A stretch of 64,000 nt of DNA from Pantoea endophytica. Lineage in GTDB: Bacteria; Pseudomonadota; Gammaproteobacteria; Enterobacterales; Enterobacteriaceae. Under the pieces are notes generated by a model that saw only the letters and a list, made by a program, of their open reading frames with translations, was not told where the DNA came from and ran no database searches. Each line of letters starts with the position of its first letter. Position 1 is the first letter of the stretch. The translations under genes and the position numbers were made by a program. The stretch is from the NCBI RefSeq assembly GCF_002858935.1, contig NZ_PJRT01000033.1, forward strand, positions 372,001 to 436,000, given 5' to 3'. This document shows, piece by piece, positions 25,463-47,866 of the stretch.

Positions 25463-25963
25463 TCACGCTTTAATCCGGCGATCAAGCGCGAAGGGCGCTG
25501 AAGTAGCTTGTGCAAATAGGGCCGCAGCGGCGGGGTGGTCGGGATTGAGAATGGCGTTGTCTTCGCCGGTCAAAATGCTGGGCACCGTTAACAGCAAAGG
25601 AAAGCCGCCTTGCACATCGAGGAATGCGGCGCCAATCGCCTGTGTCTCTTCTTGCTGCTGATACTTCTGCCAATCGTCGGGCAGTTTATTGCTGTCCAGC
25701 GCCATGATTTCGCTTTCAGGAATCGGCAGAGTAAAAATCACAAAGCGACTTTTCTCCAGCATCGCTTTACCGGCATGCACCACCAGTTCCAGCGTGGCGA
25801 GCGCCTTTGAACTGCTGAGATACACCGTCTTAATGCCGGGCGGATTCCAGCGTCCGCCCCATTTTTCAGCGCCAGCGCCGCTAAATGCCTCGCTGGCGTA
25901 CTCTTCTTTCACGAGTCGATAAAACAGCCGATAGGGAGCATCCGGTTCCTTCCGTTGCGTCAT
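25463..25963 (-). CDS. RES-domain toxin of a type II toxin-antitoxin pair
   Basis: 166 residues. The RES fold is named for conserved Arg, Glu and Ser; the opening Y-R-L-F-Y-R-L, the segment W-G-G-R-W-N-P-P-G near residue 36, the Glu in L-A-T-L-E-L-V-V-H near 58 and a late Ser are visible. Characterised members degrade or modify NAD+, arresting growth. Its ATG overlaps the antitoxin stop by one base (TAATG). Because the pair is self-contained and flanked by repeats, it may have been acquired. Confidence 0.85.
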   Translation of the reverse strand: MTQRKEPDAPYRLFYRLVKEEYASEAFSGAGAEKWGGRWNPPGIKTVYLSSSKALATLELVVHAGKAMLEKSRFVIFTLPIPESEIMALDSNKLPDDWQKYQQQEETQAIGAAFLDVQGGFPLLLTVPSILTGEDNAILNPDHPAAAALFAQATSAPFALDRRIKA

Positions 25964-26445
25964 TACACAATTACTCCGTGTTCCAGGCGACCAATCAGCG
26001 TTAACACCGCATCACAACCCGCAGGCGTGCTCAGCATCTCCATCGGCAATGCATCATCCAGTGCCAACGCAGGTTGATACATCCAGCGCATGGCAGCGTC
26101 AACGTCACCGGAAAATAATTGCAATACGGCATCCAGAATTTCGAACACCTGATACACGCGCGCACCTTGCTCCACCGAAAGTTGCGATCCGGCTTTCTCG
26201 CGGCGGCGATAGGTATTGCGATCGATAGACACCATCTGGGCCACATCCAGCGGCGTTGCTTTCAGCACCGTGGCCGCGCGTTCAACGATGCCGACATCCA
26301 GACCTTCGGTGATCAACTGGTGCGCTTTCAGCGGATTACGCGGTAAGCCCATTTGATCCATAAACGATTGCTGAGCGTGCTGGATCAGCGTGGGATCGAA
26401 GACGCGTGCGGCATTGCCGTGATTGAATGGGGATGCAGTTGTCAT
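25963..26445 (-). CDS. Xre/MbcA/ParS-type antitoxin (DUF2384)
   Basis: 160 residues; the start at ATG 26445 follows AGGAGG, and the 15 codons open further upstream lack a site and would cover the operator. The N-terminal half is an Xre-like helix-turn-helix; the C-terminal part carries the DUF2384 pattern with R-R-E-K near residue 97, F-E-I-L-D-A near 117, A-M-R-W-M near 134 and a final L-x-x-L-I-G-R-L-E-H-G-V-I-V, which plugs the RES active site. Antitoxin first, toxin second is the normal order. A perfect palindrome upstream is the likely autoregulatory operator. Confidence 0.85.
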   Translation of the reverse strand: MTTASPFNHGNAARVFDPTLIQHAQQSFMDQMGLPRNPLKAHQLITEGLDVGIVERAATVLKATPLDVAQMVSIDRNTYRRREKAGSQLSVEQGARVYQVFEILDAVLQLFSGDVDAAMRWMYQPALALDDALPMEMLSTPAGCDAVLTLIGRLEHGVIV

Positions 26446-26460
26446 AACAACCTCCTGAAC

Positions 26461-26478
26461 AATGTTCATTTGAACATT
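26461..26478 (-). promoter_or_regulatory. Operator of the Xre-RES toxin-antitoxin operon
   Basis: AATGTTCA-TT-TGAACATT, an 18-base perfect palindrome 16-33 bases upstream of the antitoxin start. Its position suits repression by the antitoxin complex. A second partial half (GTGTACA) lies at about 26491. Confidence 0.65.
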
Positions 26479-26562
26479 TTGATAGCTCAAGTGTACATCA
26501 CTGCGCAGGGGTTGTCATTTTTTATACGATCTTAAAACTAATGCATTGTTAATAAACAATAA

Positions 26563-28047
26563 TCAACTGGCTTGCTGCCACATCTCGCGCATCGCCAGCT
26601 CCAGCTTTTTAAACACCCGATAACGTACGTCGTGAAACGCAACGCGCTCTGGTCGCGGCAACAATTCGCCGGGATTGATCTGCACCGCCTGCTGCGCGGC
26701 CTCGGCAAGATTGCGCCACGCGCCGACGCCCACACCGGCACACAAGGCGGCGCCCAGCGCGCCGGTCTCTTTGCACTCCGCCACGCGAATCGGTATGCCT
26801 AACACGTCAGCAAACATCTGCGGCCAGACGCAACTGCGCGCCGCGCCGCCCGACAAAATGGCCTGCGTAAAAGGGATGCCTGCCGCACGCAAGCGATCAA
26901 TATGCGCCCGATGGGCAAAGGTCACGCCTTCAAACAGCGCAAACAGCATATCGGCGCGCGTATGCCAGCCGCCTAAGCCATAAAACCCGGCCTTGGCCGG
27001 TTCCGATTTGCGTCCGGAATAGAGATAAGGATGATAGAGCGGTAGCTGGGCATTGGGTTGCACGTGCGCCACGCTATCGCTGCTGCGCACCGCGCCCTGA
27101 CCGCCGCGACCATCGTCAAATTCGCGCAGGAACCAGTCGAGATTCGCCGCCGAGGTGGCGCTGGCCTCAATCGCCATATAACGGTCGGACTCTACAATGG
27201 AGTTCATAAATACCGGGCGCAGATAATCGGGTTTATCCACCACCACCTGATTGATGCTCCACGTACCGGCGACAATTGAGGCTTCACCGGTGTTCACCAC
27301 GCCTGAACCCACGGCGCTGGCCACCACATCAAATATGCCCGCCACCACCGGAATGCCCGCCGGTAATCCGGTGAGCTGAGCAGCCCGGTCCGTGACATGG
27401 CCAACCACCTCGCAGGATTCATGCAGTTTGGGCAGCAGGGCGAGCGCCTCTTCGATGTCGTACAGCGCCATCAATTCACGGCTGTAGCTGCGCGCACGAT
27501 AATCAATTAAGCCGGCACCGGCGGCATCTGAAAAATCAGCGCTAATCGCACCGCTGAGAAAATGGGCGATAACATCTTTCGCGCAGAGTAAATGGCCGAT
27601 TTGCGCCCAGCGCTCGGGTTGATGTTGCTTAATCCAGCTGATCAATACCGGCGTTGCCGCAGGCCAGGGTTTTTGCAGCGAAATCTGGTAGATGCGCTTA
27701 TCCGCGCCGCTCATTTCCAGCGCGTGCACCGTGTCACAAGCTCGATGATCGATAGATTGAATACCAAACAGCGGCTGCTGATGCTTATCCAGCGCGTACA
27801 AACCGTTGCCGTGGCCGGCCGCGCCAACCGCAATCACATCGCTGGCGGGCGTCTCCGCCTGCTGCAGACAACGGCTCACCGCATCGCTGACGCCATGCCA
27901 GATATCCGCCACCGGCCGTTCGGCGTAGCCTTCCTGCGGACGATGGGTTTCTCCCGCGCACTCGGCCACCGACAATACGCGACCGCTGAGATCAAACAGC
28001 ACCGCTTTGATCATGGTGTTTCCGGCATCAATACCAACTATCTTCAT
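26563..28047 (-). CDS. FGGY carbohydrate kinase, LyxK-like
   Basis: 494 residues, a cytosolic ATP-dependent sugar or polyol kinase. The first phosphate loop is G-I-D-A-G-N-T-M-I-K-A-V near residue 5, and the second domain has G-T-W-S-I-N near 262, L-S-G-G-A-A-R-S near 407 and E-T-G-A-L-G-A-A near 440. It is nearer E. coli L-xylulose kinase (498) than glycerol or xylulose kinase. It is the last gene of the seven-gene operon, 60 bases after the aldolase gene. A polyol phosphorylated here would feed the GlpD-like dehydrogenase. It shares with the EryA homologue at 43685 only the family fold. The substrate is unknown. Confidence 0.82.
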   Translation of the reverse strand: MKIVGIDAGNTMIKAVLFDLSGRVLSVAECAGETHRPQEGYAERPVADIWHGVSDAVSRCLQQAETPASDVIAVGAAGHGNGLYALDKHQQPLFGIQSIDHRACDTVHALEMSGADKRIYQISLQKPWPAATPVLISWIKQHQPERWAQIGHLLCAKDVIAHFLSGAISADFSDAAGAGLIDYRARSYSRELMALYDIEEALALLPKLHESCEVVGHVTDRAAQLTGLPAGIPVVAGIFDVVASAVGSGVVNTGEASIVAGTWSINQVVVDKPDYLRPVFMNSIVESDRYMAIEASATSAANLDWFLREFDDGRGGQGAVRSSDSVAHVQPNAQLPLYHPYLYSGRKSEPAKAGFYGLGGWHTRADMLFALFEGVTFAHRAHIDRLRAAGIPFTQAILSGGAARSCVWPQMFADVLGIPIRVAECKETGALGAALCAGVGVGAWRNLAEAAQQAVQINPGELLPRPERVAFHDVRYRVFKKLELAMREMWQQAS

Positions 28048-28107
28048 ATCCGACTCCGTGCAACTGGCGAAGACGGCGCACCGCTTAAGCGCCGGTGCAG
28101 GTAAGGC

Positions 28108-28947
28108 TCAACCCTGCTGATAGATTTCCAGGGCGTCCGCGCCGCTGACGCCCTGATGAATAATCGCCATCAGCGCTTTCACCACGCGTGACGGATTATC
28201 GTGTTGATAAACATTGCGGCCATACACCATACCGCTGGCACCTTGCGCCATCAGCGCAGCACTTTTCGTCAGCACGCCAGCCAGTTCACCTTTGCCGCCG
28301 CCGCGCACCAGCGTGGGACAGCGCGCCGCTTCCACCACGCGATGAAAATCTTCCACGTTCTCAGTGGGATCGGCTTTGATGATATCGGCACCTAACTCAC
28401 GCGCCAGCCGCACCAGCGGCACAATTTTCTCGACATCGCCGAGTGAGCCGTAAGCCGCGCCTTGTCCGGCGGGGGCCATCACCAGCGGCTCAATCATCAG
28501 CGGCATGGCGTAGCGATCGCAAGCCTGGCGCAAGCGGCCAATATTTTCGACGCACATGCGGAAAATGCCCGGTTCATCCGGGATCAGATAGAGGTTTACA
28601 ACCACTGCGGCGGCGTCCATCTGCAATGCGGCAAGAATCGGTTCATCCGGATTGTGCAGCACCGCCCACATTTCCCGATGACGCGCCGCGTTGTAGGCAT
28701 TGCCCACATCGGTGCGCAACACCAGCGCCGGTTTACGTCCCGCCACACGCTGCAGCAGATCGGCCTGACCGTAGTTGACCTGAATCGCATCCGGCTGCGC
28801 GGCGATCAGGTTATCCATCACGCCCTCAATATTCTCCAGACCGATGAGAAAATCGGGCTCGTTGGCGATACCGTGATCAATGGCGACATCCAGACATTTA
28901 CCGTGCTGAAACAGACGCTGCATGCGCACTTTATTGGTTACTAACAT
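28108..28947 (-). CDS. Class I DeoC/LsrF-family aldolase
   Basis: 279 residues, start at ATG 28947 behind CAGGAGGAAAC; the frame extends upstream inside the dehydrogenase gene without a site. It belongs to the FbaB/LacD/LsrF group of Schiff-base aldolases. Visible are C-L-D-V-A-I-D-H-G near residue 20 and the lysine in A-D-I-I-K-A-D-P-T-E, Lys191, which matches the imine-forming residue of FbaB and LsrF. Phosphate-binding G-G-G-K and G-A-S-G-M-V-Y-G-R-N follow. In this operon it would split the keto-sugar phosphate made by the dehydrogenase, plausibly releasing dihydroxyacetone phosphate or a related triose. It overlaps the dehydrogenase by 17 bases. Confidence 0.8.
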   Translation of the reverse strand: MLVTNKVRMQRLFQHGKCLDVAIDHGIANEPDFLIGLENIEGVMDNLIAAQPDAIQVNYGQADLLQRVAGRKPALVLRTDVGNAYNAARHREMWAVLHNPDEPILAALQMDAAAVVVNLYLIPDEPGIFRMCVENIGRLRQACDRYAMPLMIEPLVMAPAGQGAAYGSLGDVEKIVPLVRLARELGADIIKADPTENVEDFHRVVEAARCPTLVRGGGKGELAGVLTKSAALMAQGASGMVYGRNVYQHDNPSRVVKALMAIIHQGVSGADALEIYQQG

Positions 28948-30685
28948 GTCGTGTTTCCTCCTGAAAAACCGTGGGGTAAAGGCCGGTAAGGCCGTGCAAC
29001 CTTGCCAGATTGGCGCAGCCGCACTGCAGCAGCTGCGCGCGTTCGCTATCGCTCCAGCCGAGCGTTGCGGCCATGATCTGCGCGATCTCCTGCACCAGCG
29101 GCGCGCTAAGTTCACCGCAAATCGCTAGCGAGGTGCGGCGCACTAGCAAATCCTCCAGCTGACAAACCTGTTCGTGCTCAATCAGATACCGCAATTCGAC
29201 ATCGCTGTAGGCGGCGTGATGCTGCAACATTTGCTCGCCGTGCTGCTGGATCAGCGCCAGCAGCGGCACGGCGCGGCTGCCGTAACGTTTGGCGAGTTGC
29301 ATTACGCGCGGTAGCGGCGCGCCATAACGCTGCGCCAGTTGCGCCAGCCACGCGGTTTGTCCAGAAGGTTTGGGGAAATCACGTCCGCCGCCAATCGGCA
29401 CATCACCGCTGGAGACCTGACGTTTTTCGCCGAGCAGCCGCAGCACGCGATCCGCCGCCTCTTCACCAAACTGGCGGAAAGTGGTCCATTTACCGCCGAC
29501 TAAACAGAGCGTGCTCCAGGCGCGATTGGCGTCAGCTGGCAACACCACTAACGAGTGATTGCGCGAGATTTGGCCGTTAAGTTTGGCCTCGCTGGCGGGC
29601 AGCGGACGTACGCCGCAGAAGGTGTAAACGATGGCGGAATCCGCCACCTCGATATGCGGGAAGACGAAGCGCAGTGACTCCAGGATATAACTCTTTTCCT
29701 CCTCTTCGCACACCACTGCATCGGGATCGTCCACGCGGATATCGGTGGAACCCACCAGCACCTTGCCAAACCACGGAAACATGATGCAGACGCGGCCTTC
29801 CTGGTTTTCGAAATAGACCATTTCGCCGTCCAGCATCTGCAGCAATTCGGGATGATCGAGGATCAGATGCGAACCTTTGGTGCCGCCAATCAGCTTTGGC
29901 AGATCGCGGTTGGAGGTGATGCGTTGGTTAAGCTGGTCGATCCAGGCGCCACCGGCATTCACCAGCACATGCGGTTGCAGGCTAAATCGCTCACCGCTTA
30001 ACGCATCCTGCAAAATAACCGTTTCGCCCTCGGCGCTGACCAGCTGCAGATAATTGAGCGCCAGCGCCTCTGGACAGGCTTTTTCGGCATCATCAATCAG
30101 CTCAAATCCCAGCCGTTCCGGCGCGCTGATCCAGGCATCGTAATAGCTGGCGCTGTATTTCACCCAGGGCGCGAATCCCGGCCAGCGGTCACGCGTGGCG
30201 GCTTCATTGCGCACCTGATGCTTCGGCATCGATCCATATTGGCGGGTGTAAATGTCATACAGGCTAAGCCCGGTTTTGATCAGCAACGCCCCGCGCCGCG
30301 TCGGTTTATCGCTCAGGCGTAGAAAACGGCGGGTAGCATTCACTAAACCGCCAGCGAGATTATCGATCGGCACCGTGGTGCGTAGGGGGAAAACATAGTG
30401 CGAAGCATTTTTCAGCAGGCGATCGCGCTCGGTGACCGACTCTTTGACCAGCGTAAATTCACCGGTTTCCAGATACCGCAAACCGCCGTGAATCATGCGC
30501 GACAGCGCACCGCTGGCGGCCTGACACCAGTCGCCTTTTTCCACCAGAATCGCCGGAATGCCCTGCAGCGCCAGCTCACGAAAAGTGCTGATGCCGTTGA
30601 TGCCGCCGCCGACAATCAACACCGGTGTCGATGAACGCAGGCGCAGGGCGCTCAGGCGTTGTTCGCGGGTTTTAATGTTATCCAT
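28931..30685 (-). CDS. FAD-dependent GlpA/GlpD-like polyol-phosphate dehydrogenase
   Basis: 584 residues. The FAD motif V-G-G-G-I-N-G near residue 26 is followed by G-A-L-S-R-M-I-H-G-G-L-R-Y-L-E near 58, the hallmark of glycerol-3-phosphate dehydrogenases, and by K-G-S-H-L-I near 270 and V-L-V-G-S-T-D near 310. The C-terminal DAO_C-like region contains R-R-T-S-L. GlpA and GlpD act at the inner membrane and pass electrons to quinone. With the kinase and aldolase of the same operon, a longer-chain polyol phosphate is the likelier substrate. It differs from EryB (42148) in length (584 against 508). Its start overlaps the SorC gene by 8 bases. Confidence 0.82.
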   Translation of the reverse strand: MDNIKTREQRLSALRLRSSTPVLIVGGGINGISTFRELALQGIPAILVEKGDWCQAASGALSRMIHGGLRYLETGEFTLVKESVTERDRLLKNASHYVFPLRTTVPIDNLAGGLVNATRRFLRLSDKPTRRGALLIKTGLSLYDIYTRQYGSMPKHQVRNEAATRDRWPGFAPWVKYSASYYDAWISAPERLGFELIDDAEKACPEALALNYLQLVSAEGETVILQDALSGERFSLQPHVLVNAGGAWIDQLNQRITSNRDLPKLIGGTKGSHLILDHPELLQMLDGEMVYFENQEGRVCIMFPWFGKVLVGSTDIRVDDPDAVVCEEEEKSYILESLRFVFPHIEVADSAIVYTFCGVRPLPASEAKLNGQISRNHSLVVLPADANRAWSTLCLVGGKWTTFRQFGEEAADRVLRLLGEKRQVSSGDVPIGGGRDFPKPSGQTAWLAQLAQRYGAPLPRVMQLAKRYGSRAVPLLALIQQHGEQMLQHHAAYSDVELRYLIEHEQVCQLEDLLVRRTSLAICGELSAPLVQEIAQIMAATLGWSDSERAQLLQCGCANLARLHGLTGLYPTVFQEETRHVSNQ

Positions 30686-31667
30686 GAGATGCTCCTCGGC
30701 TCAGGGCCAATTCCAGTACGCCTGCCGCAGTCGATTCATCAGTGACCATGCCTTTCAGCCACTGACCGTGCAGCACGCAGTCAATCGGGTCCACTTTGTC
30801 ACGACCAGCCACCACCGCCATTGAGAAGGGAATGCGTTGCAGTTCAGGCAACGTCAGGCCAACTAAACGCCGGTTGGCATCGAACGGAGCCGGTTGGCCG
30901 TTAGCATCCAGCAGCCAGGCTAACAGTTCACTGCGCGCACCGCTGGTTTCAATGCTGGAGGAAGCATGGCGCGCCGAGAGGTTAAGATCGTAGTAGCTGG
31001 AATTGTCGCTATGAATTGATCCTAAACCCACTACCGCTAACGTGGCGTTACGCGCTTTATCCAGCACCTGGTCGACGGCGCTAATGCCCATCAGCATGTC
31101 GCGTTCATCGGCAGAATCAGTAAACAGCGGGGCGTGAATCTGCCATGCGTGTCCGCCAAGACGCGCCGCCATTTCCGAGGCCACATGATTGACGTCGGTG
31201 TAATGTTTGCCTTGCACGCAGCCCAGCGCGGGTACCACTTGAACATCGTATTTACGTGAGGGCTGTAATGCTTCAACCAGCGCACTTACACCTTTGCCAC
31301 CAGTAATAGCAATGACATCGCCATCCTTTAGACGTGATAACAAATATTCTGCCGCCGCTGCGCCGACCATTTGCAGACTATGATCCTCACTGCGTGCAAC
31401 GTTCGGCGCCACCACCACCTGTTGCAACTGACCGAGGGCAGCCAGATCGCTCTCCAGTTGATGTGCTGAAAGCCAGGGGGATTTGATGGTGATTTCCACC
31501 ATGCCGCTCTCCTTGCCCTGACGTATCAGACGATTAACACTGGCAACCGATAAGCCGGTTTCAACCGCAATCTCCGACTGTTTCTTGCCATCGAGGTAAT
31601 ACATCACCAGAACCTGGTAAATCTGACGCGCGCTATGAAACGCAGGGTGCTCATTAGCGAATTCCAT
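30678..31667 (-). CDS. SorC/DeoR-type sugar-binding regulator
   Basis: 329 residues from ATG 31667; a GTG eight codons earlier overlaps the permease stop. An N-terminal helix-turn-helix (residues about 20-50, K-K-Q-S-E-I-A-V-E-T-G-L-S-V-A-S-V-N-R) precedes a large sugar-phosphate-binding domain of the LsrR/DeoR/EryD kind. Such proteins are released from DNA by a phosphorylated pathway intermediate. Being inside the operon it can autoregulate; the 36-bp palindrome at 35298-35333 is the obvious target. Confidence 0.85.
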   Translation of the reverse strand: MEFANEHPAFHSARQIYQVLVMYYLDGKKQSEIAVETGLSVASVNRLIRQGKESGMVEITIKSPWLSAHQLESDLAALGQLQQVVVAPNVARSEDHSLQMVGAAAAEYLLSRLKDGDVIAITGGKGVSALVEALQPSRKYDVQVVPALGCVQGKHYTDVNHVASEMAARLGGHAWQIHAPLFTDSADERDMLMGISAVDQVLDKARNATLAVVGLGSIHSDNSSYYDLNLSARHASSSIETSGARSELLAWLLDANGQPAPFDANRRLVGLTLPELQRIPFSMAVVAGRDKVDPIDCVLHGQWLKGMVTDESTAAGVLELALSRGASHG

Positions 31668-31680
31668 GGGCGATAATTCC

Positions 31681-32676
31681 TTATGCAGCACGGTATTTAT
31701 TCAGTAAGTGATCGATTGAGACGGCGGCCAGTAAAATCAAACCTTTAATCAACTCCTGCCAGTAAACGGAGACGTTGATTAATATTAGCGAGCTGGTGAC
31801 GATCGACAGCAATGCAACACCAAGCACCGCGCCAAGAATTGAGCCAGTGCCACCTTTCAGACTCGCGCCGCCAATGACCGCCGCTGCAATGACATTCAGT
31901 TCCATACCGACACCAAAGGTTGGCGTTGCAGAGCCAAGACGTGCCATATAAATAATGCCGGCGAGTCCTGCCAGCGTAGAGGTCAGTACTGTGACCCACA
32001 ATTTGATGCGATTAATGTTGATGCCGGAATAGGCGGCGGCACGTTCATTACTGCCGGTGTAGAACACTTTGCGAAATAACGTGGCTTTACGCAGCAAGAA
32101 GTCGAACAGTGCGACCAGCACGAAGAACAGCAGGATAACGAACGGAACGCCCCACAGAGCGCCCTGGCCGATAAATTTGAAACTCACGGGCAGGGTAAAT
32201 AATGATAGCGGCGTTCCCTGAGTGACGATCATACACAGGCCGCGCACGATAACCATCGCCGCCAGCGAAGCGATAAAGTGACTGAGGCCGATTTTTGTTA
32301 CCGTCAGCCCCATTAAAAAGCCAATCAGCGCCGCCGCCGCAATGCCGCCTACGCCAGCCAGCCAGGGATCCACGCCGCTAAGAAATAGCTGCCCAGCGAC
32401 CACCATTGAAAGACAAACCACTGCGCCAACCGAAAGGTCGATACCGCCAACTATTAGCAGAATAGTCATGCCAATCACCACAATGCCTTCAATTGAAAAC
32501 GACAGTAGCATCGCCTTCATGTTGGCCCAGGTGAGAAAGTAGGGGGAAGTGAAACTCATCACCACGAAGATCAGTGCAATGATCGCAATCAGTCCCACTT
32601 CGCGCTGTTTATGAATGCCGCCAAACAGAGACCAACGCGATTTTTGCAGTGTAGGCAAGGTGGTATTCATTGTCAT
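31681..32676 (-). CDS. ABC sugar transporter permease (RbsC type)
   Basis: 331 residues with eight to ten helices; carries the ribose-family permease block G-G-I-D-L-S-V-G-A-V near residue 73 and A-A-V-I-G-G-A-S-L-K-G-G-T-G-S near 267. A single permease implies a homodimeric channel, unlike the LsrC/LsrD pair. Its ATG overlaps the ATPase stop (ATGA). Part of the CUT2-class importer with 32673 and 34192. Confidence 0.88.
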   Translation of the reverse strand: MTMNTTLPTLQKSRWSLFGGIHKQREVGLIAIIALIFVVMSFTSPYFLTWANMKAMLLSFSIEGIVVIGMTILLIVGGIDLSVGAVVCLSMVVAGQLFLSGVDPWLAGVGGIAAAALIGFLMGLTVTKIGLSHFIASLAAMVIVRGLCMIVTQGTPLSLFTLPVSFKFIGQGALWGVPFVILLFFVLVALFDFLLRKATLFRKVFYTGSNERAAAYSGININRIKLWVTVLTSTLAGLAGIIYMARLGSATPTFGVGMELNVIAAAVIGGASLKGGTGSILGAVLGVALLSIVTSSLILINVSVYWQELIKGLILLAAVSIDHLLNKYRAA

Positions 32677-34181
32677 ACAGCCTCCGCTTCTGGAATGATG
32701 CCAGCCGCTAGCCGCATCAGGTTCTCTTCATTCATTGCCTCACCGGTCACTTCTCCGCTCATGCGCCCTTCATGAATCACGATGATGCGATCACACAGGC
32801 CAATGAGTTCCGGTAACTCTGATGAAATCACGATTAAACCCACACCGCTGGCCGCCAGTTTGGCGAGAATACTGTAGATCTCAGCCTTGGCGCTGACATC
32901 CACGCCACGTGTTGGTTCGTCAAGAAACACAATTTCCGGCTGTACCGATAACACGCGTGCTAGCGCGACTTTCTGCTGATTCCCACCCGATAGCGACGAC
33001 ACCGGATCGCTTAATTTGGCAAGCTTGAGTTTCACTTGCTTTGCCAGCGCCTCTGCCTGCTGACGCTCAAGCTGTGGACTGAGCAACAAACGATGATGAC
33101 TGACTGCGTTGACATCCAGAGCCGAAATGTTCCATTCGATCGGCATCGTTAAAAAAAGTCCGGCATCTTTGCGATCCTCCGACAAATAGACCATGCGCAG
33201 CGCAATACTCGCGGCGTAATCCCTCAATGTCACAGCTTTGCTCTTGATACGGATTGCGCCACGTTTGATGGGCAGTAAACCGCAGATACCCTGCGCAATT
33301 TCGCTGCGTCCTGCCCCCATCAAACCGCCAATGCCAAGGATTTCGCCGGGACGCAAATCAAAATTGATATCGTGGAAGTGTTTGCCATCGCCAAGCTCAC
33401 GCACTTCAAGCAATGGTGAAGCGGCGCTAACTGGGCGTTTATCAGGATAGAGTTGCGACAGTTCTCGTCCGACCAAACGTGTAATCACTTCATCGGGCGT
33501 CATGTTTTGCAGCGTTGAACTGTGTACCGTAAGGCCATCGCGTAGAATGGTGATGTGCTGGCATAGCGCAAAAATCTCTGCCATGCGATGGCTGATATAG
33601 ACCACTGAAATACCTTGCGCCTGCAACTGGCGCACAATCGTAAACAGCGTTTGAGCCTCTGGTTCGGTTAGCGCGGCGGTGGGTTCATCCAGAATGAGCA
33701 GGCGACAATCCAGCGTCAGCGCTTTGGCGATCTCCACCAGTTGCTGCTGAGAGAGAGAAAGTTCACCCACTTTTTTAGTCACCGCTATCGGCGCGAGTCG
33801 ATTCATCACCTGCTGCGCTTTTTCACGTAGTACTTTATGCGGCATGAGCACGCCGCGCTGGCCAGCGGCATGCGCCATCCAAATGTTTTCATAAATGCTG
33901 ATATCAGGACAAAGAGCAATTTCCTGATGTACCAGACCAATGCCAAGACTCTGTGCTTCACGTGGTGAGCGAATGGTCACGGCCTTGCCACACAGCAATA
34001 TCTCGCCACCATCTGGACGCAAAATGCCATCAATAATGTTCATCAACGTTGATTTTCCAGCGCCATTCTCTCCGGCCAGCGCATGAATTTCTCCCGCGCG
34101 GAGGGTGAGATCTACCCCCTGTAAAGCCCGTACCGCGCCAAAACTTTTAGTGATGCCACGTAATTCCAATAGTGCTGTCAT
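32673..34181 (-). CDS. ABC sugar transporter ATPase, tandem domains (RbsA type)
   Basis: 502 residues. Two ABC domains lie in tandem: Walker A G-E-N-G-A-G-K-S-T in the first (near residue 38), signature L-S-L-S-Q-Q-Q (degenerate), and in the second the degenerate P-loop G-G-L-M-G-A-G-R-S with signature L-S-G-G-N-Q-Q-K-V and Walker B V-F-L-D-E-P-T-R-G-V-D. This asymmetry is normal for CUT2 ATPases. The start is put at ATG 34181 (AAGG eight bases upstream) rather than the ATG at 34199, which overlaps the binding-protein stop. It energises import for the 26.5-35.2 kb operon. Confidence 0.88.
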   Translation of the reverse strand: MTALLELRGITKSFGAVRALQGVDLTLRAGEIHALAGENGAGKSTLMNIIDGILRPDGGEILLCGKAVTIRSPREAQSLGIGLVHQEIALCPDISIYENIWMAHAAGQRGVLMPHKVLREKAQQVMNRLAPIAVTKKVGELSLSQQQLVEIAKALTLDCRLLILDEPTAALTEPEAQTLFTIVRQLQAQGISVVYISHRMAEIFALCQHITILRDGLTVHSSTLQNMTPDEVITRLVGRELSQLYPDKRPVSAASPLLEVRELGDGKHFHDINFDLRPGEILGIGGLMGAGRSEIAQGICGLLPIKRGAIRIKSKAVTLRDYAASIALRMVYLSEDRKDAGLFLTMPIEWNISALDVNAVSHHRLLLSPQLERQQAEALAKQVKLKLAKLSDPVSSLSGGNQQKVALARVLSVQPEIVFLDEPTRGVDVSAKAEIYSILAKLAASGVGLIVISSELPELIGLCDRIIVIHEGRMSGEVTGEAMNEENLMRLAAGIIPEAEAV

Positions 34182-34191
34182 AATCGTCGCC

Positions 34192-35217
34192 TTACTCATT
34201 GATGCCTTTAGTGCCGCGGCGTTTCAGATAAGCATCCCAGCGGAAATCATCGGCGTTGTCTTTAGTCACCACCGCATAACCGTTATCAAGGATTGGGAAG
34301 GCAAAAGGATTGGTCCCGTTGCGTTTGGCGTCATTCATCGGATCGATCAGTTCAGGATGGGCAGCAAGGAACAAGGTCATAAAACCCATATAGCCCTGGA
34401 TGCCCTGATTTGGATTGATTGCGCCAAATACCTGACCGCTTTTAATCATATCCAGCACCTTAGCGTTGACATCCACGGTCATCACTTTCACTTTGCCGCC
34501 GTTTTCAGCCACTGCCTGCGCAGCACCAATCGCAGAGCTGGCTTCCGGCATAAAGATGCCTTTCAGATTGGGGTTCGCCTGCAACATTGAGAGTACGGCG
34601 TTATAGGCTTTCGAAGGGTCCTGATTCGTCGCAGCGCGTGCGACTAATTTGCTGTCAGGAAAGGCGGTTTTCATCTCATTAATAAACGCAGTGACACGCC
34701 TATCGTGATTATCCTGACCGGGGTTTTCCAGCACCGCAAATTCGGCACCTTTACCCATTGCTTTCCCTAGTTCGTCGGCTGCGGCTTTACCCTCACGGAA
34801 ATTGTCTGAGGTGATATAAGCAACGCGTTTACTGTTAGGTGAATCGGCGGCAAACGTTACCACTGGAATGCCCATTTCAGCAGCACGATTAATGGGCTCA
34901 ATAAAGGGGTCAGGATTCATCGGATGAAGAAAAATACCGGCGGGTTTTTGTGCCAGGATTTGTTCAAAGCTCGAGAGTTGCTGGTTAACGTCATAAGCGG
35001 GTGTGCCACCGTATACGGTCTTACAGCCCAGCTGATGCGCAGCCTGCTTGAACATTTCGTAAACCGGGAACCAATACTCTACGCCTGTCACCATCACGTT
35101 CATGTAGTAAGTTTCGCCGGGTTTACAGCGAAATTGAGGCGCATCCGCTGCTTGCGTGATGCTGGTGAAACTGCCCGCCATGAATAAACTGGCGAGTAGA
35201 ACAGTGATTTTTTTCAT
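34192..35217 (-). CDS. Periplasmic sugar-binding protein
   Basis: 341 residues. MKKITVLLASLFMAGSFTSI begins a signal peptide cleaved after T-Q-A-A or nearby. The rest is a two-lobed periplasmic-binding-protein-like (RbsB/RhaS group) domain, with L-H-P-M-N-P-D-P-F near residue 102 and T-V-D-V-N near 245. It has two cysteines near the start of the mature chain (C-K-P-G and G-C-K-T). It is the first gene after the operator-promoter at 35298-35364 and defines the uptake specificity of the operon. It is not a recognisable LsrB. Confidence 0.86.
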   Translation of the reverse strand: MKKITVLLASLFMAGSFTSITQAADAPQFRCKPGETYYMNVMVTGVEYWFPVYEMFKQAAHQLGCKTVYGGTPAYDVNQQLSSFEQILAQKPAGIFLHPMNPDPFIEPINRAAEMGIPVVTFAADSPNSKRVAYITSDNFREGKAAADELGKAMGKGAEFAVLENPGQDNHDRRVTAFINEMKTAFPDSKLVARAATNQDPSKAYNAVLSMLQANPNLKGIFMPEASSAIGAAQAVAENGGKVKVMTVDVNAKVLDMIKSGQVFGAINPNQGIQGYMGFMTLFLAAHPELIDPMNDAKRNGTNPFAFPILDNGYAVVTKDNADDFRWDAYLKRRGTKGINE

Positions 35218-35297: not shown

Positions 35298-35333
35298 TTG
35301 AAAATTATTTCTTATGCATGAAATAATTTTCAA
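35298..35333 (-). promoter_or_regulatory. 36-bp palindromic operator at the start of the polyol operon
   Basis: Perfect 14-bp arms TTGAAAATTATTTC and GAAATAATTTTCAA around TTATGCAT. On the minus strand it overlaps the predicted transcription start (about 35329). It is the probable binding site of the operon's own SorC-type regulator. Confidence 0.7.
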
Positions 35334-35335
35334 AA

Positions 35336-35364
35336 GGTATAAAAGCTGGCGGGGAAAAGATCAA
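35336..35364 (-). promoter_or_regulatory. Sigma-70 promoter of the polyol operon
   Basis: On the minus strand TTGATC, 17-base spacer, TATACC. The -10 box is six to twelve bases upstream of the palindrome, giving a start near 35329 and a leader of about 110 bases before the binding-protein gene. Confidence 0.65.
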
Positions 35365-35391: not shown

Positions 35392-35407
35392 TGTGAGTGC
35401 GTTCACT
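35392..35407 (-). promoter_or_regulatory. CRP site upstream of the polyol operon
   Basis: TGTGA-GTGCGT-TCACT matches the CRP core at 9 of 10 positions. Its centre lies about 70 bases upstream of the predicted start, a standard class I activation distance. The remaining part of 35408-35596 has a minor GCCAGG/CCTGGC hairpin (35499-35520) and nothing else. Confidence 0.65.
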
Positions 35408-35596: not shown

Positions 35597-36109
35597 ATGC
35601 TCATCACGTTTAGTGGATTACCCGGCACCGGCAAAAGCACCATTGCGCGCTTATTAGCGCAGCAGATCGGCGCGGTGTATTTACGCGTCGATACTATCGA
35701 ACAGGCGTTGCGATCGGGTGAAGAGAGCGAGAAAGCGATCGGGCCGGAAGGATATTTCGTTATCTACGGATTGGCACGCGACAATTTGCTGCTCGGTTCC
35801 ACCGTTATTACCGACTCGGTTAACGACCTGCAACTGATCCGCAACGCTTATCGCGATATCGCCTTGTTGAGCGGTGCGCCGCTGCTGGAAGTCGAAGTAA
35901 TCTGTTCCGATCGTAACAAACATCGCTTTCGCGTCGAAAATCGCGCTTCCGATATTAAAGGTTTGAAGCTGCCGGATTGGCAGGCAGTTGAACAGCGCGA
36001 ATATCAAGCCTGGGAGCGCGATCATTTGCAGCTTGATAGCGCCTTACTCTCGGCGCAGCAGTGCGTGGATGCCATTCTACAAGCGCTGCCTAAAATGTCA
36101 CAATCCTGA
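35597..36109 (+). CDS. P-loop AAA-type predicted kinase
   Basis: 170 residues, cytosolic. The Walker A motif G-L-P-G-T-G-K-S-T is at residues 7-15; V-D-T-I-E near 33 and R-V-E-N-R-A near 112 fit the small-molecule or nucleotide kinase group (adenylylsulfate kinase, chloramphenicol phosphotransferase relatives). No substrate can be assigned. It is divergent from the polyol operon across 379 bases, so co-regulation is possible. A hairpin follows it. Confidence 0.75.
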   Translation: MLITFSGLPGTGKSTIARLLAQQIGAVYLRVDTIEQALRSGEESEKAIGPEGYFVIYGLARDNLLLGSTVITDSVNDLQLIRNAYRDIALLSGAPLLEVEVICSDRNKHRFRVENRASDIKGLKLPDWQAVEQREYQAWERDHLQLDSALLSAQQCVDAILQALPKMSQS

Positions 36110-36115
36110 TCTTTC

Positions 36116-36142
36116 AGTGGTGGCGTAAAACGCGCCGCCACT
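36116..36142 (+). terminator. Hairpin after the P-loop kinase gene
   Basis: AGTGGTGGCG and CGCCGCCACT pair (one G-U) around a 7-base loop, followed by TTTCACC. Seven bases after the stop codon. Confidence 0.5.
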
Positions 36143-36287
36143 TTCACCTGAAACCCATTCTTCGATCTTAATGTGATCAACCTCCGGATTCGGCGGTTGC
36201 ATTATTGTTTATTGCTGCGCGTTTGTTATGAATGAAGCGTATTTTAGTTTCGAATGAAACTCGTAAGTTAACGAATCGGAGCATGTC

Positions 36288-37550
36288 ATGAATAATACTT
36301 TCACTTCACTGCAACAACCTGATGATTTCAAACAAAACGTATGCCTGATGAAAAGGGTGCTAAGAGAGCAGATCGGCGATGTCGAAGGTCTGTTTGAACA
36401 AGTCAGAAGCAAAATCGTCAGCGAAATTGCCGCTGCTCGCGCGGAAGAGGCGCAAAACGGCAGCGCGTGGCCGCAGGTGAGTCAGCAGGATATTGCGGCG
36501 GGACGTATCACCGATGAGGTGAAGGATCATATTCGTCGACGCGGTTGTGTAGTGGTGAAGCAGACATTCCCGCGCGATCAGGCGCTGGCCTGGGATGAAT
36601 CAATGCTCAAATACCTCGATGACAATGATTTCGACAACGTCTACCAAGGGCCGGGCGATAACTTCTTCGGCAATCTTGATGCGTCACGTCCGGAAATCTA
36701 TCCGATTTACTGGAGCGATGCGCAGATGTCAGCGCGCCAAAGCGATGCCATGGCCCAGACGCAATCTTTCCTCAATCGCTTGTGGACGTTTGAGTCGCGC
36801 GGCACGCGCTGGTTTGAACCTGACGTCAGTATCATTTATCCCGATCGTATTCGTCGCCGCTTGCCGGGCACCACCTCCAAAGGTCTTGGCGCGCACACTG
36901 ATTCAGGCGCATTGGAGCGTTGGTTACTGCCGGCGTATCAACAGGTGTTCAGCAAAATTTTCACCAACCAGTTTGATCAATACGATCCCTGGGATGCGGC
37001 GCATCGCACTGAAGTGAATGAGTATCAATCAGGGACTACCACCAAGTGCTCGGTATTCCGTACCTTCCAGGGCTGGACCGCGCTGTCGGATATGCGGACT
37101 GGTCAGGGCTTGCTGCATGTGGTGCCGGTGCCGGAAGCGATGGCCTATTTGTTGCTGCGTCCGTTGTTGAAAGATGTACCAGAAGATGAGCTTTGCGGCG
37201 TTGCGCCGGGCAAAGTGCTGCCGGTTTCAGCGCAGTGGCATCCGGAACTGATTGAGGGCTTGTGTTCGATTCCCGCGTTGCAGGCGGGCGATTCGGTTTG
37301 GTGGCATTGTGATGTGATCCACTCGGTCGCGCCGGTAGAGGATCAGCAAGGCTGGGGCAATGTAATGTACATTCCCGCCGCACCGCTGTGTGAGAAAAAT
37401 GCCGCCTACGCTACCAAAGTGGCGCAGGCGCTGGCCAGCGGTGCGTCGCCTGGCGATTTCCCGCAGGAGGATTATGAAACGCAGTGGCGCGATCGCTTCA
37501 CCCTCGACGCGCTGAATGCCAATGGTCGCCGCAGTCTGGGATTGGGCTAA
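36288..37550 (+). CDS. ybiU: DUF1479 protein YbiU, predicted Fe(II)/2-oxoglutarate oxygenase
   Basis: 420 residues, the length of E. coli YbiU (421) and close to it throughout. The motif G-A-H-T-D-S-G near residue 203 provides the H-x-D pair, and W-W-H-C-D-V-I-H-S-V near 340 the distal His, as in iron/2-oxoglutarate dioxygenases. The substrate is unknown. AATCGGAGCATGTC precedes the ATG. It is followed after 42 bases by a DeoR regulator, with which it may be linked; E. coli ybiU is not in this place, so this is a local insertion. Confidence 0.88.
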   Translation: MNNTFTSLQQPDDFKQNVCLMKRVLREQIGDVEGLFEQVRSKIVSEIAAARAEEAQNGSAWPQVSQQDIAAGRITDEVKDHIRRRGCVVVKQTFPRDQALAWDESMLKYLDDNDFDNVYQGPGDNFFGNLDASRPEIYPIYWSDAQMSARQSDAMAQTQSFLNRLWTFESRGTRWFEPDVSIIYPDRIRRRLPGTTSKGLGAHTDSGALERWLLPAYQQVFSKIFTNQFDQYDPWDAAHRTEVNEYQSGTTTKCSVFRTFQGWTALSDMRTGQGLLHVVPVPEAMAYLLLRPLLKDVPEDELCGVAPGKVLPVSAQWHPELIEGLCSIPALQAGDSVWWHCDVIHSVAPVEDQQGWGNVMYIPAAPLCEKNAAYATKVAQALASGASPGDFPQEDYETQWRDRFTLDALNANGRRSLGLG

Positions 37551-37592
37551 ATTTCTGGTAAGCTTGACAAAAATTTCACAGCAGCGGGTGTT

Positions 37593-38333
37593 ATGAACGC
37601 ACGTCATCAACAGATTATCCAATTGGTTAGCGAGCGCGGCAGCGTCAGCGTAAATGAGCTGGCGCACACCACCGGCGTCTCAGAAGTGACGGTGCGTCAG
37701 GATCTCAATCTTCTGGAGAAAGGCGGCTTTCTGCGCCGCGTGCACGGTTCCGCCGTGGCGCCAGAAAGTGATGATGTTGGCGCGCGTATGCAAACCCGCT
37801 TCGCGGTGAAAAAGCGTCTCGCCGAGTACGCGGCGTCGCTGGTGAACAGCGGTGAAACGGTGTTTATCGAAGGCGGCAGTACTAACGCTTTGCTGGCGCG
37901 TGAACTGAGTGAACGCAACGATATCACCATCATTACCGTGAGCCATTACATCGCCGGATTGCTGCGCGAAAAGGGCGGCGATGTGATCATCCTTGGCGGC
38001 CTGTTCCAGAAAAGCAGTGAATCGGTGGTGGGGCCGCTAACGCGTCTGTGTATTCAGCACCTCAATTTCCACAAGGCGTTTATCGGTATTGATGGCTGGG
38101 ATGCGGTCACCGGCTTTACCGGCCGCGATATGCTGCGCTGTGACGTGGTCAACGCCATCATGGAAAAACCTACACACACCATCGCGCTGACGGATTCCTC
38201 AAAGTTTGGCCAGATTCATCCGTTTGCGCTGGCACCGCTTCAGCCGTTTAAACAACTGATTACCGATGCCGAACTGGAGGCGAGCTATCAAAAAGCGCTG
38301 TGTGAGAAGGGCGTGGAAGTGAGTTTGGTCTAG
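37593..38333 (+). CDS. yciT: DeoR-family regulator, YciT type
   Basis: 246 residues. The DeoR helix-turn-helix occupies residues 1-55 ([19 protein letters not shown]) and the sugar-phosphate-binding domain has [10 protein letters not shown] near 90 and F-I-G-I-D-G-W near 165. It matches E. coli YciT well, including F-T-G-R-D-M near 180. YciT is linked to osmotic and envelope control in E. coli but its effector is unknown. TTGACA at 37565 may be its own -35 box. Thirteen bases separate it from the convergent hipA. Confidence 0.8.
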
Positions 38334-40096: not shown

Positions 40097-41050
40097 TCAG
40101 CCCACTAATGCCTGCGCGGTGACCTCATCAGTGATCAAACCGGTCACCAGACCGCTGGCCAGCACTGCGCGAATCGCGGCGACCTTACTGGCGCCGCCCG
40201 CCAGGGCGACAATCTCTGCGCGATGCGAGAGATCGAGATCCACCGACAACGTGCGGGCTGTTAGGTTGGTGTGAATCATCTGTCCGTTGGCATCGAAGAA
40301 GTGGCCCAGCAGCTCGCCGACCGCGCCGGATGAGGAGATATCATTGATCTCCGCTTCATCAATCATGCCGGCTTCAACCAGCTGAGCCGCGGGTTCCACG
40401 GTGCCAATTCCCACCAGTTTGACTTCACTCTGCGCCGCCATGGCAAACACCTCGCTCACGCCGCGCTGCGCCAGTAACACTTCGCGATCTTCTTGGGTAT
40501 TGGCAAAGAAAGGCACGGGCATCATGTAGGCCTGCGCACCGGTTTTCTCGGCGATGCGGTGCATAACGTCGTGAGGATTGAGCGCGTAGTTGCGGGTTAA
40601 ACAGCCGAGCAGCGAGACAAAGCGCATATGCGGCGCATCAATACGTGGCAATTGATGGATGGCGGCGGAAAGGGTGCGGCCATGCCCCAGACCTAAGGTG
40701 GTAGAAGGCGACGCGGTGAGCAGGTTACGCAGGTAATCCGCGCCCGCCATGCCCAGCGCGCGCACCGGCAAGCCTTCTTCGCCAAGATCGGGGGCGACAT
40801 GACAGAAGTTAAGCGCGAATTTCGCGCGCAGACGATCTTCTAATTGGACGCAGGCGACGATATCACCATCAATCGACACCTTCACCGCGCCTTCCGCCAC
40901 CATGCGCGCAATCATGCGGTGCGTTTTCACCGACGGCAGCCCGAGTCGTTTCGCCACTTCCGCCTGCGTTAAACCGCCGACGTAGTGCAGCCAGGCGGCG
41001 CGCAGCGCCAGAGATTCGTCGCGTTCAGTCGAGGTTGGTGCCGGTTTCAT
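40097..41050 (-). CDS. eryD: SorC-family regulator of erythritol catabolism (EryD)
   Basis: 317 residues, matching Brucella EryD (316). The helix-turn-helix G-L-T-Q-A-E-V-A-K-R-L-G-L-P-S-V-K-T-H-R occupies residues 25-46; the sugar-binding domain follows, with L-G-L-G-H-G-R-T near 120 and A-G-G-A-S-K near 290. In Brucella EryD represses the ery genes until erythritol is present. It is the last gene of the eryABCD transcript, separated from eryC by a palindromic repeat. AAAGGACAACCC precedes its ATG. Confidence 0.82.
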   Translation of the reverse strand: MKPAPTSTERDESLALRAAWLHYVGGLTQAEVAKRLGLPSVKTHRMIARMVAEGAVKVSIDGDIVACVQLEDRLRAKFALNFCHVAPDLGEEGLPVRALGMAGADYLRNLLTASPSTTLGLGHGRTLSAAIHQLPRIDAPHMRFVSLLGCLTRNYALNPHDVMHRIAEKTGAQAYMMPVPFFANTQEDREVLLAQRGVSEVFAMAAQSEVKLVGIGTVEPAAQLVEAGMIDEAEINDISSSGAVGELLGHFFDANGQMIHTNLTARTLSVDLDLSHRAEIVALAGGASKVAAIRAVLASGLVTGLITDEVTAQALVG

Positions 41051-41083
41051 GGGTTGTCCTTTGGTTTATATGGTGCGCTTAAG

Positions 41084-41185
41084 CCCTCATCCCAACCTTC
41101 TCCCACAAGTGGGAGAAGGGGCCGTTCGAGCAGCGTGCGCGGACAGTTCCCTCGCCCGCTTGCGGGAGAGGGTTAGGGTGAGGGG
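41084..41185. repeat. REP-like double-hairpin repeat inside the ery operon
   Basis: Hairpin 1 is CCTTCTCCCAC-AA-GTGGGAGAAGG (41096-41119). Hairpin 2 is CCCTCGCCCGC-TT-GCGGGAGAGGG (41149-41172, one mismatch). Outer CCCTCATCC / GGGTGAGGG segments enclose both. Such CCCTCACCCTAACCC-type palindromes are dispersed in many gammaproteobacterial genomes. It lies between eryC and eryD and may lower or stabilise expression of one of them. Confidence 0.7.
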
Positions 41186-41198
41186 GAAACCGCGCCCC

Positions 41199-42137
41199 TC
41201 ACTCCGCCAAATGCAGATCCTGCACGCCGGTATCAATATGCCCGGCCCAGAAGGCGACGCTTTCGGCGATCTCCGCCACCACGTTGCTATCGGTTGGCTC
41301 GCGCTCTTTAAAACTCAGCTCAAGGCAGATCTCATTATCCTGCGCACCGCCGCGCGCCAGCGCGTCCAGCAGCGGCTGCGGCTGAATGCGGCCGCCGGCA
41401 TTGTACTGCAATGTAAAAGGTCTGTGTCCGCCTTTATCCAGCATGCTCTGTTTAATATGGATAATCGGCGAGTAACGCGGCACCGCTTCGGCCCACGCAT
41501 AAGGATCGTAATCGCGCGGATCGGCGGAAGTGACATCTCCGTGATCGATATCCGCCATCATCCACATCGGCAGCGCCATTGAGGCAGTACTCAAACGCTG
41601 CTGTAGCGCCAGACAGGCCGGAATGGTTTCGCCAAACTCGCGGCCCACGCTCATGGGTTCCCAAAACAGGTATTTCAATCCGGCGGCTTTGGCGTGTTCG
41701 GCAACGTCGGCCCAGCAATCAATGGCGATGTCGATCAGTGCGTCGCGGCGCGCAACATCGTTGAAATCCTGCTGGGTAAAGATGGCGAACTGCGAACCCA
41801 CCGCGTCGCCGCCCAGCTCGGCGGTGATATCAGCGAAGGTTTTAAACCAGCCAACATAATAGCGGCGTACTTCGACATCAGGATGACCAAAATGGTTGAG
41901 GCGACCATAGGGGCCGGTCATGCCGGAGGTCACGCGCACGCCGGTGGCGCGCAGCGCCTGCTGCATCTTGCGCGTCATGCGCGTGAGGGTCGCAGCAGGC
42001 CAGCCGGGATTGATAAATTCATGGGTGAGCTGCACATCACGGATGCGGATCTGCTGCGCCACGGTGTTAATCAAATCCTGCGGGTCGGCAAAGCGGTTCA
42101 CCAACGGATTAGTATTCAGTGACAGCGTTAACGGCAT
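41199..42137 (-). CDS. eryC: EryC-like sugar phosphate isomerase/epimerase (TIM barrel)
   Basis: 312 residues, against 309 in Brucella EryC. It belongs to the xylose-isomerase-like TIM-barrel group; metal ligands would be the Glu in F-W-E-P-M-S-V near 160, the Asp/His in D-I-D-H-G near 197, His in I-H-I-K-Q near 242 and Glu in C-L-E-L-S near 285. In Brucella EryC acts as an L-3-tetrulose-4-phosphate racemase. Here it sits directly after eryB (10-base gap). A related epimerase role on another tetrose or pentulose phosphate is possible. Confidence 0.8.
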   Translation of the reverse strand: MPLTLSLNTNPLVNRFADPQDLINTVAQQIRIRDVQLTHEFINPGWPAATLTRMTRKMQQALRATGVRVTSGMTGPYGRLNHFGHPDVEVRRYYVGWFKTFADITAELGGDAVGSQFAIFTQQDFNDVARRDALIDIAIDCWADVAEHAKAAGLKYLFWEPMSVGREFGETIPACLALQQRLSTASMALPMWMMADIDHGDVTSADPRDYDPYAWAEAVPRYSPIIHIKQSMLDKGGHRPFTLQYNAGGRIQPQPLLDALARGGAQDNEICLELSFKEREPTDSNVVAEIAESVAFWAGHIDTGVQDLHLAE

Positions 42138-42147
42138 GATTCACCTC

Positions 42148-43674: not shown

Positions 43675-43684
43675 GATTTACTCC

Positions 43685-47844: not shown

Positions 47845-47866
47845 CATGAAAAGTGGAGCAAAAGGT

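Follow-up and report, generated by a model that had tools for sequence, protein, structure and literature searches.

A candidate polyol kinase–dehydrogenase–aldolase operon in Pantoea endophytica and its relatives in other proteobacteria

Described systems and the layout of the operon

An FGGY-family kinase, a SorC-type regulator and an ATP-binding cassette (ABC) importer are encoded together in two described systems, the ery locus and the lsr operon of Escherichia coli, and also in a seven-gene operon at 26563-35217 of a 64,000-nucleotide stretch of Pantoea endophytica DNA (assembly GCF_002858935.1, contig NZ_PJRT01000033.1, positions 372,001 to 436,000; hereafter the window). With somewhat more confidence than doubt, we read this operon as a catabolic unit in which a polyol is converted through a polyol phosphate to a ketose-1-phosphate, which is then split into dihydroxyacetone phosphate (DHAP) and an aldehyde. 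The ery locus (eryABCD and eryEFG), in the available passages of Geddes et al. (2013; PMC3599248), also has a GlpD-family dehydrogenase; it has EryC and no core aldolase. The operon kinase and dehydrogenase are 28.6% and 30.6% identical to an EryA-like and an EryB-like protein encoded elsewhere in the window, and in trees they form groups apart from EryA and EryB. Since the operon has no EryC-type gene either, we rejected it as a member of ery. The lsr operon further shares an aldolase of the same fold group, but it has no dehydrogenase, two permeases instead of one and the LsrG isomerase, and its LsrF lacks a glutamate discussed below. Membership of lsr was rejected as well, given the one permease, the lack of an LsrG-like gene among the seven and the LsrK and LsrF models, which stayed below cut-off. 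The original prediction had likewise set the operon apart from lsr by its dehydrogenase and single permease.

A third system, ydjEFGHIJKL of E. coli, is a parallel of similar make-up, with transporters, a regulator, an aldo-keto reductase (AKR), a kinase, an aldolase and dehydrogenases. YdjI is annotated as an octuluronate-phosphate aldolase and YdjH as its kinase, and there is no GlpD-like enzyme. The cluster carries an AKR, which none of 39 Enterobacterales loci with the operon aldolase does, and BLASTP gave no match between the operon aldolase and YdjI. Outside Enterobacterales such loci do encode an AKR, and that of locus L120 is 37.5% identical to YdjG. Our literature search found no paper on the ydj cluster enzymes among the ten matches listed.

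The type of cleavage proposed here has precedents. Wawszkiewicz is said to have suggested the cleavage of erythrulose-1-phosphate in Propionibacterium pentosaceum in 1968. In its available passages, a 2023 paper notes that P. pentosaceum and Sinorhizobium meliloti have both been suggested to degrade erythritol by this cleavage, and it names no genes for it in P. pentosaceum (PMC10733421). As in our scheme, a ketose-1-phosphate would be cleaved to DHAP and an aldehyde in polyol breakdown. According to the same passages, the formation of erythrulose-1-phosphate from DHAP and formaldehyde is a side activity of several aldolases, and YihT and FbaA failed to support the reverse reaction in vivo. 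Cleavage of D-xylulose-1-phosphate to DHAP and glycolaldehyde has been engineered in yeast (PMC4918971, available in part). No description of the present gene set or its reaction as a unit was found among the top matches of the literature searches, most subscription journals being outside the coverage, so that absence is not proven. The original prediction that no described pathway has this set is only partly right, given the erythrulose-1-phosphate cleavage already suggested and the parallel of ydj. The reaction type is already known, and what the pairing of a GlpD-like oxidation with this aldolase clade adds is best seen as a new variation on it. If the scheme is correct, polyols would have a further route around the pentose phosphate pathway, in which a GlpD-type enzyme turns a polyol phosphate into a ketose-1-phosphate that is then split to DHAP.

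Seven uninterrupted open reading frames (ORFs) fill the whole interval on the minus strand, in the order of transcription binding protein, ATPase, permease, SorC regulator, dehydrogenase, aldolase and kinase (Table 1). Five adjacent gene pairs overlap by 4-17 bases, and 60 bases separate the aldolase and kinase genes. ORFs and Pfam thus confirm the predicted run of importer, regulator, kinase, dehydrogenase and aldolase genes, mostly overlapping or nearly so, as well as the length given for the dehydrogenase. None of the seven proteins reached an NCBIfam cut-off among the models listed (for the ATPase, 25 of 189 models). A near-identity DNA search of E. coli genomes and plasmids gave no match.

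Table 1. Operon genes and upstream elements, in window coordinates
Feature	Positions	Strand	Basis
ABC importer substrate-binding protein, 341 aa	34192..35217	-	Peripla_BP_4 above Pfam cut-off
ABC importer ATPase, 508 aa	32673..34199	-	two ABC_tran stretches, above Pfam cut-off
ABC importer permease, 331 aa, the operon's single permease	31681..32676	-	BPD_transp_2 above Pfam cut-off
SorC-family regulator, 337 aa	30678..31691	-	Sugar-bind domain above Pfam cut-off
GlpD-like flavin adenine dinucleotide (FAD) dehydrogenase, 584 aa	28931..30685	-	DAO and DAO_C above Pfam cut-off
Class I aldolase, 279 aa, Lys191 and Glu153	28108..28947	-	DeoC/LacD above Pfam cut-off
FGGY carbohydrate kinase, 494 aa	26563..28047	-	FGGY_N/C above Pfam cut-off
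Inverted repeat, perfect 13-bp arms, 8-bp spacer, candidate SorC operator	35299..35332	.	pattern scan
Promoter-like stretch TTGATC-17-TATACC, weak	35335..35364	-	by eye; not returned by consensus scan
CRP-like palindrome GTGA-N6-TCAC	35393..35406	.	likeness to CRP consensus

Active sites and the predicted reactions

The aldolase start is best placed at an internal ATG at 28947, which leaves a 17-base overlap with the dehydrogenase gene; the listed ORF of 335 residues begins further upstream, at a GTG. Lys191, named in the original prediction as the Schiff-base residue, is kept together with Glu153 in 81/81 rows of the aldolase alignment. A structure model (mean predicted local distance difference test score, pLDDT, 82.9) belongs to the MJ0400/LsrF fold group: the nearest neighbour is MJ0400 with fructose-1,6-bisphosphate or DHAP, followed by LsrF, archaeal class I fructose-bisphosphate aldolase, YihT and LacD. 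YihT is a class I aldolase that forms DHAP, and LacD, of the same class, acts on a ketose bisphosphate. Both are remote from the operon aldolase (15-16% and 13-14% identity, respectively, in the fold search), but the Lys and Glu of YihT align with Lys191 and Glu153, in a remote alignment and with no BLASTP match between the two proteins. We take the equivalent Glu to be catalytic. Since Glu153 has a counterpart in YihT by that alignment and none in LsrF, a retro-aldol reaction would be expected rather than the thiolysis of LsrF. The LsrF model of NCBIfam gives 91 of the 297 bits of its cut-off. Of the predicted likeness to LsrF and FbaB, the lysine and the fold group hold, while Glu153 departs from LsrF, and the protein would be a ketose-1-phosphate aldolase.

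The dehydrogenase keeps Arg54, Tyr55, His233, Arg317, Arg332 and Lys354 of E. coli GlpD in 64/64 rows, the window's included; these are presumably residues of the phosphate and substrate site. Position 270, Thr in GlpD, is Ser in 63 rows and Ala in one. The conservation fits oxidation of a carbinol adjoining a phosphomethyl group, and a polyol phosphate as substrate would yield a ketose-1-phosphate. Such a polyol phosphate is what we take the enzyme to oxidize. It is 30% identical to GlpD and, as said, hardly closer to the window's EryB-like protein, which itself is 50% identical to GlpD. On the GlpD equivalog of NCBIfam it scores 250 of 360 bits, below cut-off, against 766 for the EryB-like protein. 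EryB-like and GlpD sequences stand together in the tree (100/100), and the operon enzyme groups with its own orthologs. It was therefore rejected as a member of the GlpD family; the GlpD likeness named in the original prediction is supported, with the site residues of GlpD in place.

The kinase is nearest LyxK among four FGGY kinases compared (31.8%; XylB 28.9, EryA-like 28.6, LsrK 24.9), and to this extent it is LyxK-like, as predicted. It lies outside the LyxK group, however, a separate 100/100 group that LyxK forms with two plasmid homologs; at this identity we rejected both membership of LyxK and, as too distant, the likeness as a clue to substrate. Asp240 aligns with Asp233 of XylB in 63/64 rows, the remaining row having a gap. 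The LsrK model gives 206 of 528 bits, below cut-off. The EryA-like protein falls outside the operon-kinase group, in a tree where several sequences, LsrK and XylB among them, were flagged as long branches. We regard the enzyme as a putative polyol kinase. In database records the aldolase and the adjoining enzymes go by the names ‘class I fructose-bisphosphate aldolase’, ‘glycerol-3-phosphate dehydrogenase/oxidase’ and ‘L-xylulose kinase’, which the present analysis makes doubtful.

The same comparisons bear on another, quite improbable, reading, in which a sugar or ketose is the substrate of the kinase, the dehydrogenase serves glycerol-3-phosphate oxidation or redox balance, and the aldolase works as a thiolase like LsrF or in biosynthesis. 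LyxK, the nearest kinase, is a ketose kinase, the binding protein is nearest the arabinose-binding AraP, and the aldolase fold is nearest ADH synthase and LsrF, all of which would suit it. It sits less well with a kinase that shares no more than 32% with LyxK and falls outside the LyxK group, a dehydrogenase that shares 30% with GlpD where the EryB-like protein shares 50%, and a Glu153 that LsrF does not have.

In the catabolic scheme that we prefer, the ABC importer would take up a polyol or polyol-like compound, and the FGGY kinase would phosphorylate a terminal CH2OH. The GlpD-like FAD enzyme would then oxidize the carbinol next to it, much as GlpD treats glycerol-3-phosphate, so that a ketose-1-phosphate is formed and the electrons enter the quinone pool. 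Cleavage of this product by the class I aldolase, between C3 and C4, would yield DHAP and a short aldehyde. Oxidoreductases encoded in the same loci may deal with the aldehyde in many alphaproteobacteria and vibrios; the window's genome would have to rely on genes located elsewhere. SorC probably acts as a repressor at the repeat upstream of the operon, until it binds a metabolite of the pathway. We infer every reaction, their order, the electron acceptor and the inducer. The kinase-dehydrogenase-aldolase logic of the original prediction agrees with the active-site residues, while its polyol substrate stays presumptive. As candidate substrates we consider, by our own estimate, tetritols, pentitols and the rarer hexitols or deoxyhexitols.

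The SorC regulator is 28% identical to LsrR and 26% to an EryD-like protein of the window. The inverted repeat, upstream of the binding-protein gene, is the sole match in the window at <=3 mismatches, and none was found in 100 shuffles. It recurs (<=4 mismatches) in 11/11 named Enterobacterales loci that have both the binding protein and SorC, with exact arms in 8 and varying spacers. At up to 6 mismatches it is absent from the other 28 Enterobacterales loci, one of which (L094) ends before that region. A weak hit with 6 mismatches was seen in the same-genus locus L053, where no SorC or importer match is listed, and a similar repeat (3 mismatches) in Saccharospirillum (L100). Of the 34 other loci with the binding protein, 12, all of Rhizobiales, have AATATATTTCA-N5-TGAATTATATT upstream, some of the arms including spacer bases. 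Judged by this pattern, the repeat is probably a SorC operator, newly found here as a candidate. The palindrome further upstream owes its label to what we take to be the CRP consensus.

Distribution and descent

Relatives were collected by scanning named genomes with a 16-row alignment of the aldolase. They are numerous: 515 stretches were reported, of which 80 loci were examined, a gene being scored by tblastn at E <=1e-20 with identity >=36% and >=80 residues (interrupted genes can match as well). The triad of dehydrogenase, aldolase and kinase is present in 63/80 loci (22/39 in Enterobacterales and 41/41 in others), and all seven genes in 46/80 (11/39 and 35/41). The gene association is thus not due to chance. 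The original prediction had proposed to seek the set in other genomes, where it does recur, and its view of the run as one catabolic unit gains support. The set is common to plant-associated and marine bacteria, across alpha- and gammaproteobacteria. In ten Enterobacterales loci the triad occurs without SorC and importer. Among 20 alphaproteobacterial aldolase stretches, the triad is encoded in 15, of which 13 hold the complete set of seven, and 5 have only a sister aldolase, described below; two triad loci (L202 and L205) lack some importer parts.

Plasmid pSymB of S. meliloti 1021 carries all seven genes, plus an AKR and a glucose-methanol-choline (GMC) oxidoreductase, with every match in one piece. 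As this strain has the whole unit, the pathway idea is directly testable there. In some other S. meliloti strains the kinase may be broken: in CP140955.1 its matches come in two pieces, and on pSymB of strain ml28 no coding sequence is annotated at the expected site (L137:11652-13222).

The closest named relative of the aldolase, among the best 80 of 515, is that of Pantoea sp. SOD02 (98%). The window's genome amounts to 5.11 Mb in 31 contigs. In samples that overlap and were searched at different cut-offs, the aldolase occurs in 18/60 relatives, all of the same genus, in 2/394 genomes of the order, 10/398 of the phylum and 1/274 of the class, the last being the window's own genome, which is included throughout; around genome G655 it occurs in 8/289 of its class and 30/151 of its family. 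Trees were made from 35 dehydrogenase and 39 kinase rows (25 chosen of the 63 triad loci, plus references) and rooted at midpoint. For the dehydrogenase (100/97) and the kinase (100/99) alike, the copies from enterobacteria cluster together and Ancylobacter is sister to them, and the main groups of the two trees agree by eye. With such roots and partial sampling, this position of Ancylobacter suggests a transfer of the unit from alphaproteobacteria to enterobacteria.

Accessory genes mark the loci outside Enterobacterales. An AKR gene lies between SorC and the dehydrogenase in 40/41 of them (0/39 in Enterobacterales), a GMC oxidoreductase gene follows in 31/41, and an iron alcohol dehydrogenase is found in 5/41. 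The last is nearest FucO, a lactaldehyde reductase, with 297 bits against a cut-off of 523, and the AKR is nearest YdjG (266 of 550 bits). The FucO-like enzyme and the AKR fit an aldehyde product.

Sister aldolases, 50-52% identical to the window's (L035, L036), appear to point independently to ketose-1-phosphate cleavage. In 7/7 stretches they adjoin a lyxose-isomerase-like gene (assigned by Pfam in L046, and by 30-51% similarity to the L046 protein in the other six), and a PfkB kinase is near in 4/7. Isomerase, kinase and aldolase are the set needed by a ketose-1-phosphate pathway, and these loci would encode another such route. Their members are L046 (8898-16097), L038, L194-L197 and L199; some hold, besides the PfkB kinase, a Gfo/Idh/MocA dehydrogenase. 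On plasmid pRM41A of S. meliloti Rm41 (L147:1-9641), annotation places GlpD-like and zinc dehydrogenases beside an ABC importer, a sugar-binding regulator, a sugar kinase and a fructose bisphosphate aldolase, which by analogy is seemingly a further variant of the same theme.

Several observations weigh against the catabolic scheme. The aldolase can stand alone: in 17/39 Enterobacterales loci, 15 of them of Serratia, neither dehydrogenase nor kinase lies within the stretch, and 6 of 18 same-genus genomes with the aldolase lack the dehydrogenase at the cut-off used. Conversely, same-genus genome G013 has the dehydrogenase and no aldolase match. Five plasmid loci of rhizobia or Paracoccus, with a layout like that of ery, hold kinase-dehydrogenase relatives without the operon aldolase. 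Such pairs are also found in Agrobacterium and in Rubrobacter, and they indicate that the first two steps are independent of this cleavage. The AKR and GMC enzymes have no clear place in the scheme. The nearest solved chain to the binding protein, by sequence and by the fold of its model, is 6sw4 (AraP), so that its closest structural relative would be a binder of arabinose, and the correspondence with the Glu of YihT appears remote in the absence of a BLASTP hit. In the literature covered we found no published substrate for any operon enzyme or ortholog.

Among the Serratia loci, 14 of the 15 solitary aldolases adjoin a different ABC importer. The aldolase gene is divergent from it, mostly with two binding proteins, in L072-L079, L081, L083, L084, L086, L087 and L089, and in L072 sensor kinase and response regulator genes follow (seen by eye).

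The same-genus counts include imperfect copies, namely G005, whose aldolase has a stop and which was entered for aldolase and binding protein, G017 (dehydrogenase 430/584 residues), and G008 and G034 (aldolase in two pieces). Such copies raise the question whether the operon, intact here, is an island being lost in the genus that may no longer serve growth. Besides the aldolase stop in G005 and the split in G008, several genes are in pieces in L056 and L096, as are the ATPase and dehydrogenase genes in L058, and six genomes have kept the aldolase without the dehydrogenase; in G034 the aldolase pieces lie at contig ends, and the split may come from assembly. We consider decay very improbable as an account of the operon, in view of seven uninterrupted ORFs in the window, key residues that are invariant across classes and operator arms that are kept.

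The neighbouring ery-type locus and the substrate

A separate ery-type locus, missing from the original prediction and of consequence for the substrate, lies at 40097-50990, 5 kb from the operon. It encodes SorC, an EryC-like triosephosphate isomerase (TIM) barrel (41199-42137), EryB-like dehydrogenase, EryA-like kinase, a divergent DUF2291 protein, an ABC importer and DeoR. The EryA-EryD labels follow gene content and order in the available part of PMC3599248, not characterized Ery proteins. Among 36 same-genus genomes, the window's own included, the operon dehydrogenase is found in 13, EryC-like protein in 13 and both in 10 (Fisher 0.0002, ignoring kinship), and EryC is present in 5/7 genomes that have the dehydrogenase without the binding protein. 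In the five ery-like plasmid loci mentioned above, the kinase-dehydrogenase relatives come with an ABC importer, in four with DUF2291 and in four with DeoR; only in L146 among them does a divergent kinase group with EryA. Together the co-occurrence and the plasmid loci hint at a tetritol-like substrate.

The hint can be taken further. Threitol or erythritol would then give erythrulose-1-phosphate, to be cleaved to DHAP and formaldehyde, and this would either run in parallel with the isomerase route of the ery-type locus or replace it. We hold this unlikely, though with an appreciable chance of being right: the proximity of the two loci, their co-occurrence and the plasmid loci of ery-like layout speak for it, as does the cleavage already suggested in P. 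pentosaceum and S. meliloti (PMC10733421, available passages), in which, conversely, YihT and FbaA gave no support of the reverse reaction in vivo. Outside Enterobacterales, EryB, EryC and EryD have no match within the stretch in 41/41 loci at the cut-offs used, which counts against it. So does the product, formaldehyde being toxic; no gene for handling it was noticed in the loci read, where no search was aimed at one. Finally, a second TIM and an RpiB (172 of 240 bits on the DerI model, below cut-off) are encoded about 50 kb from the ery-type locus, and with these the genome may already possess a complete isomerase route for erythrulose phosphate. It is quite unlikely that the operon is a natural tetritol pathway in which erythrulose-1-phosphate is split by a class I aldolase into DHAP and formaldehyde. 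If it is, the cleavage that was suggested as early as 1968 would gain a genetic basis, and the synthetic erythrulose monophosphate cycle a dedicated natural enzyme for its key reaction. With a tetritol as substrate, the aldolase would also be an enzyme of the kind sought for formaldehyde assimilation (PMC10733421, available passages).

For the polyol scheme in general, the known assignments in S. meliloti narrow the choice. In the available part of one paper, the mpt transporter serves erythritol, adonitol and L-arabitol, and the smo locus sorbitol, mannitol, galactitol and D-arabitol (PMC10433430). Xylitol is not among the carbon sources giving good growth of wild-type S. meliloti in Table 2 of PMC4207669, whose text has no ‘xylitol’. 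The substrate would therefore not be a common panel polyol, provided that the operon is expressed in such tests. The source passages available connect SMb20484-20488 with psicose and describe SMb20504 as a putative sugar-binding protein; as the record of strain 1021 carries no annotation, these tags could not be placed relative to the operon.

The second TIM and RpiB belong to a region about 32-42 kb past the window end (L218:6425-16049; G000:C25:468425-478049). It encodes SorC, a PGDH-like protein, a TIM-barrel isomerase-like protein, the second TIM, a DhaK-type kinase, a major facilitator superfamily transporter, the DerI-like RpiB and a transketolase, and looks like a tetrose or erythrulose phosphate route.

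The operon is flanked by genes of other kinds. Directly 3′ of the kinase gene, at 25463-26490, RES-domain and Xre/MbcA/ParS-type genes likely form a toxin-antitoxin pair, for which PADLOC gave no match. Divergent from the operon, 35597-38333 encodes a small AAA-type kinase, a Gig2-like protein and a DeoR regulator, the last scoring 371 bits on the YciT model of NCBIfam, against a cut-off of 450.

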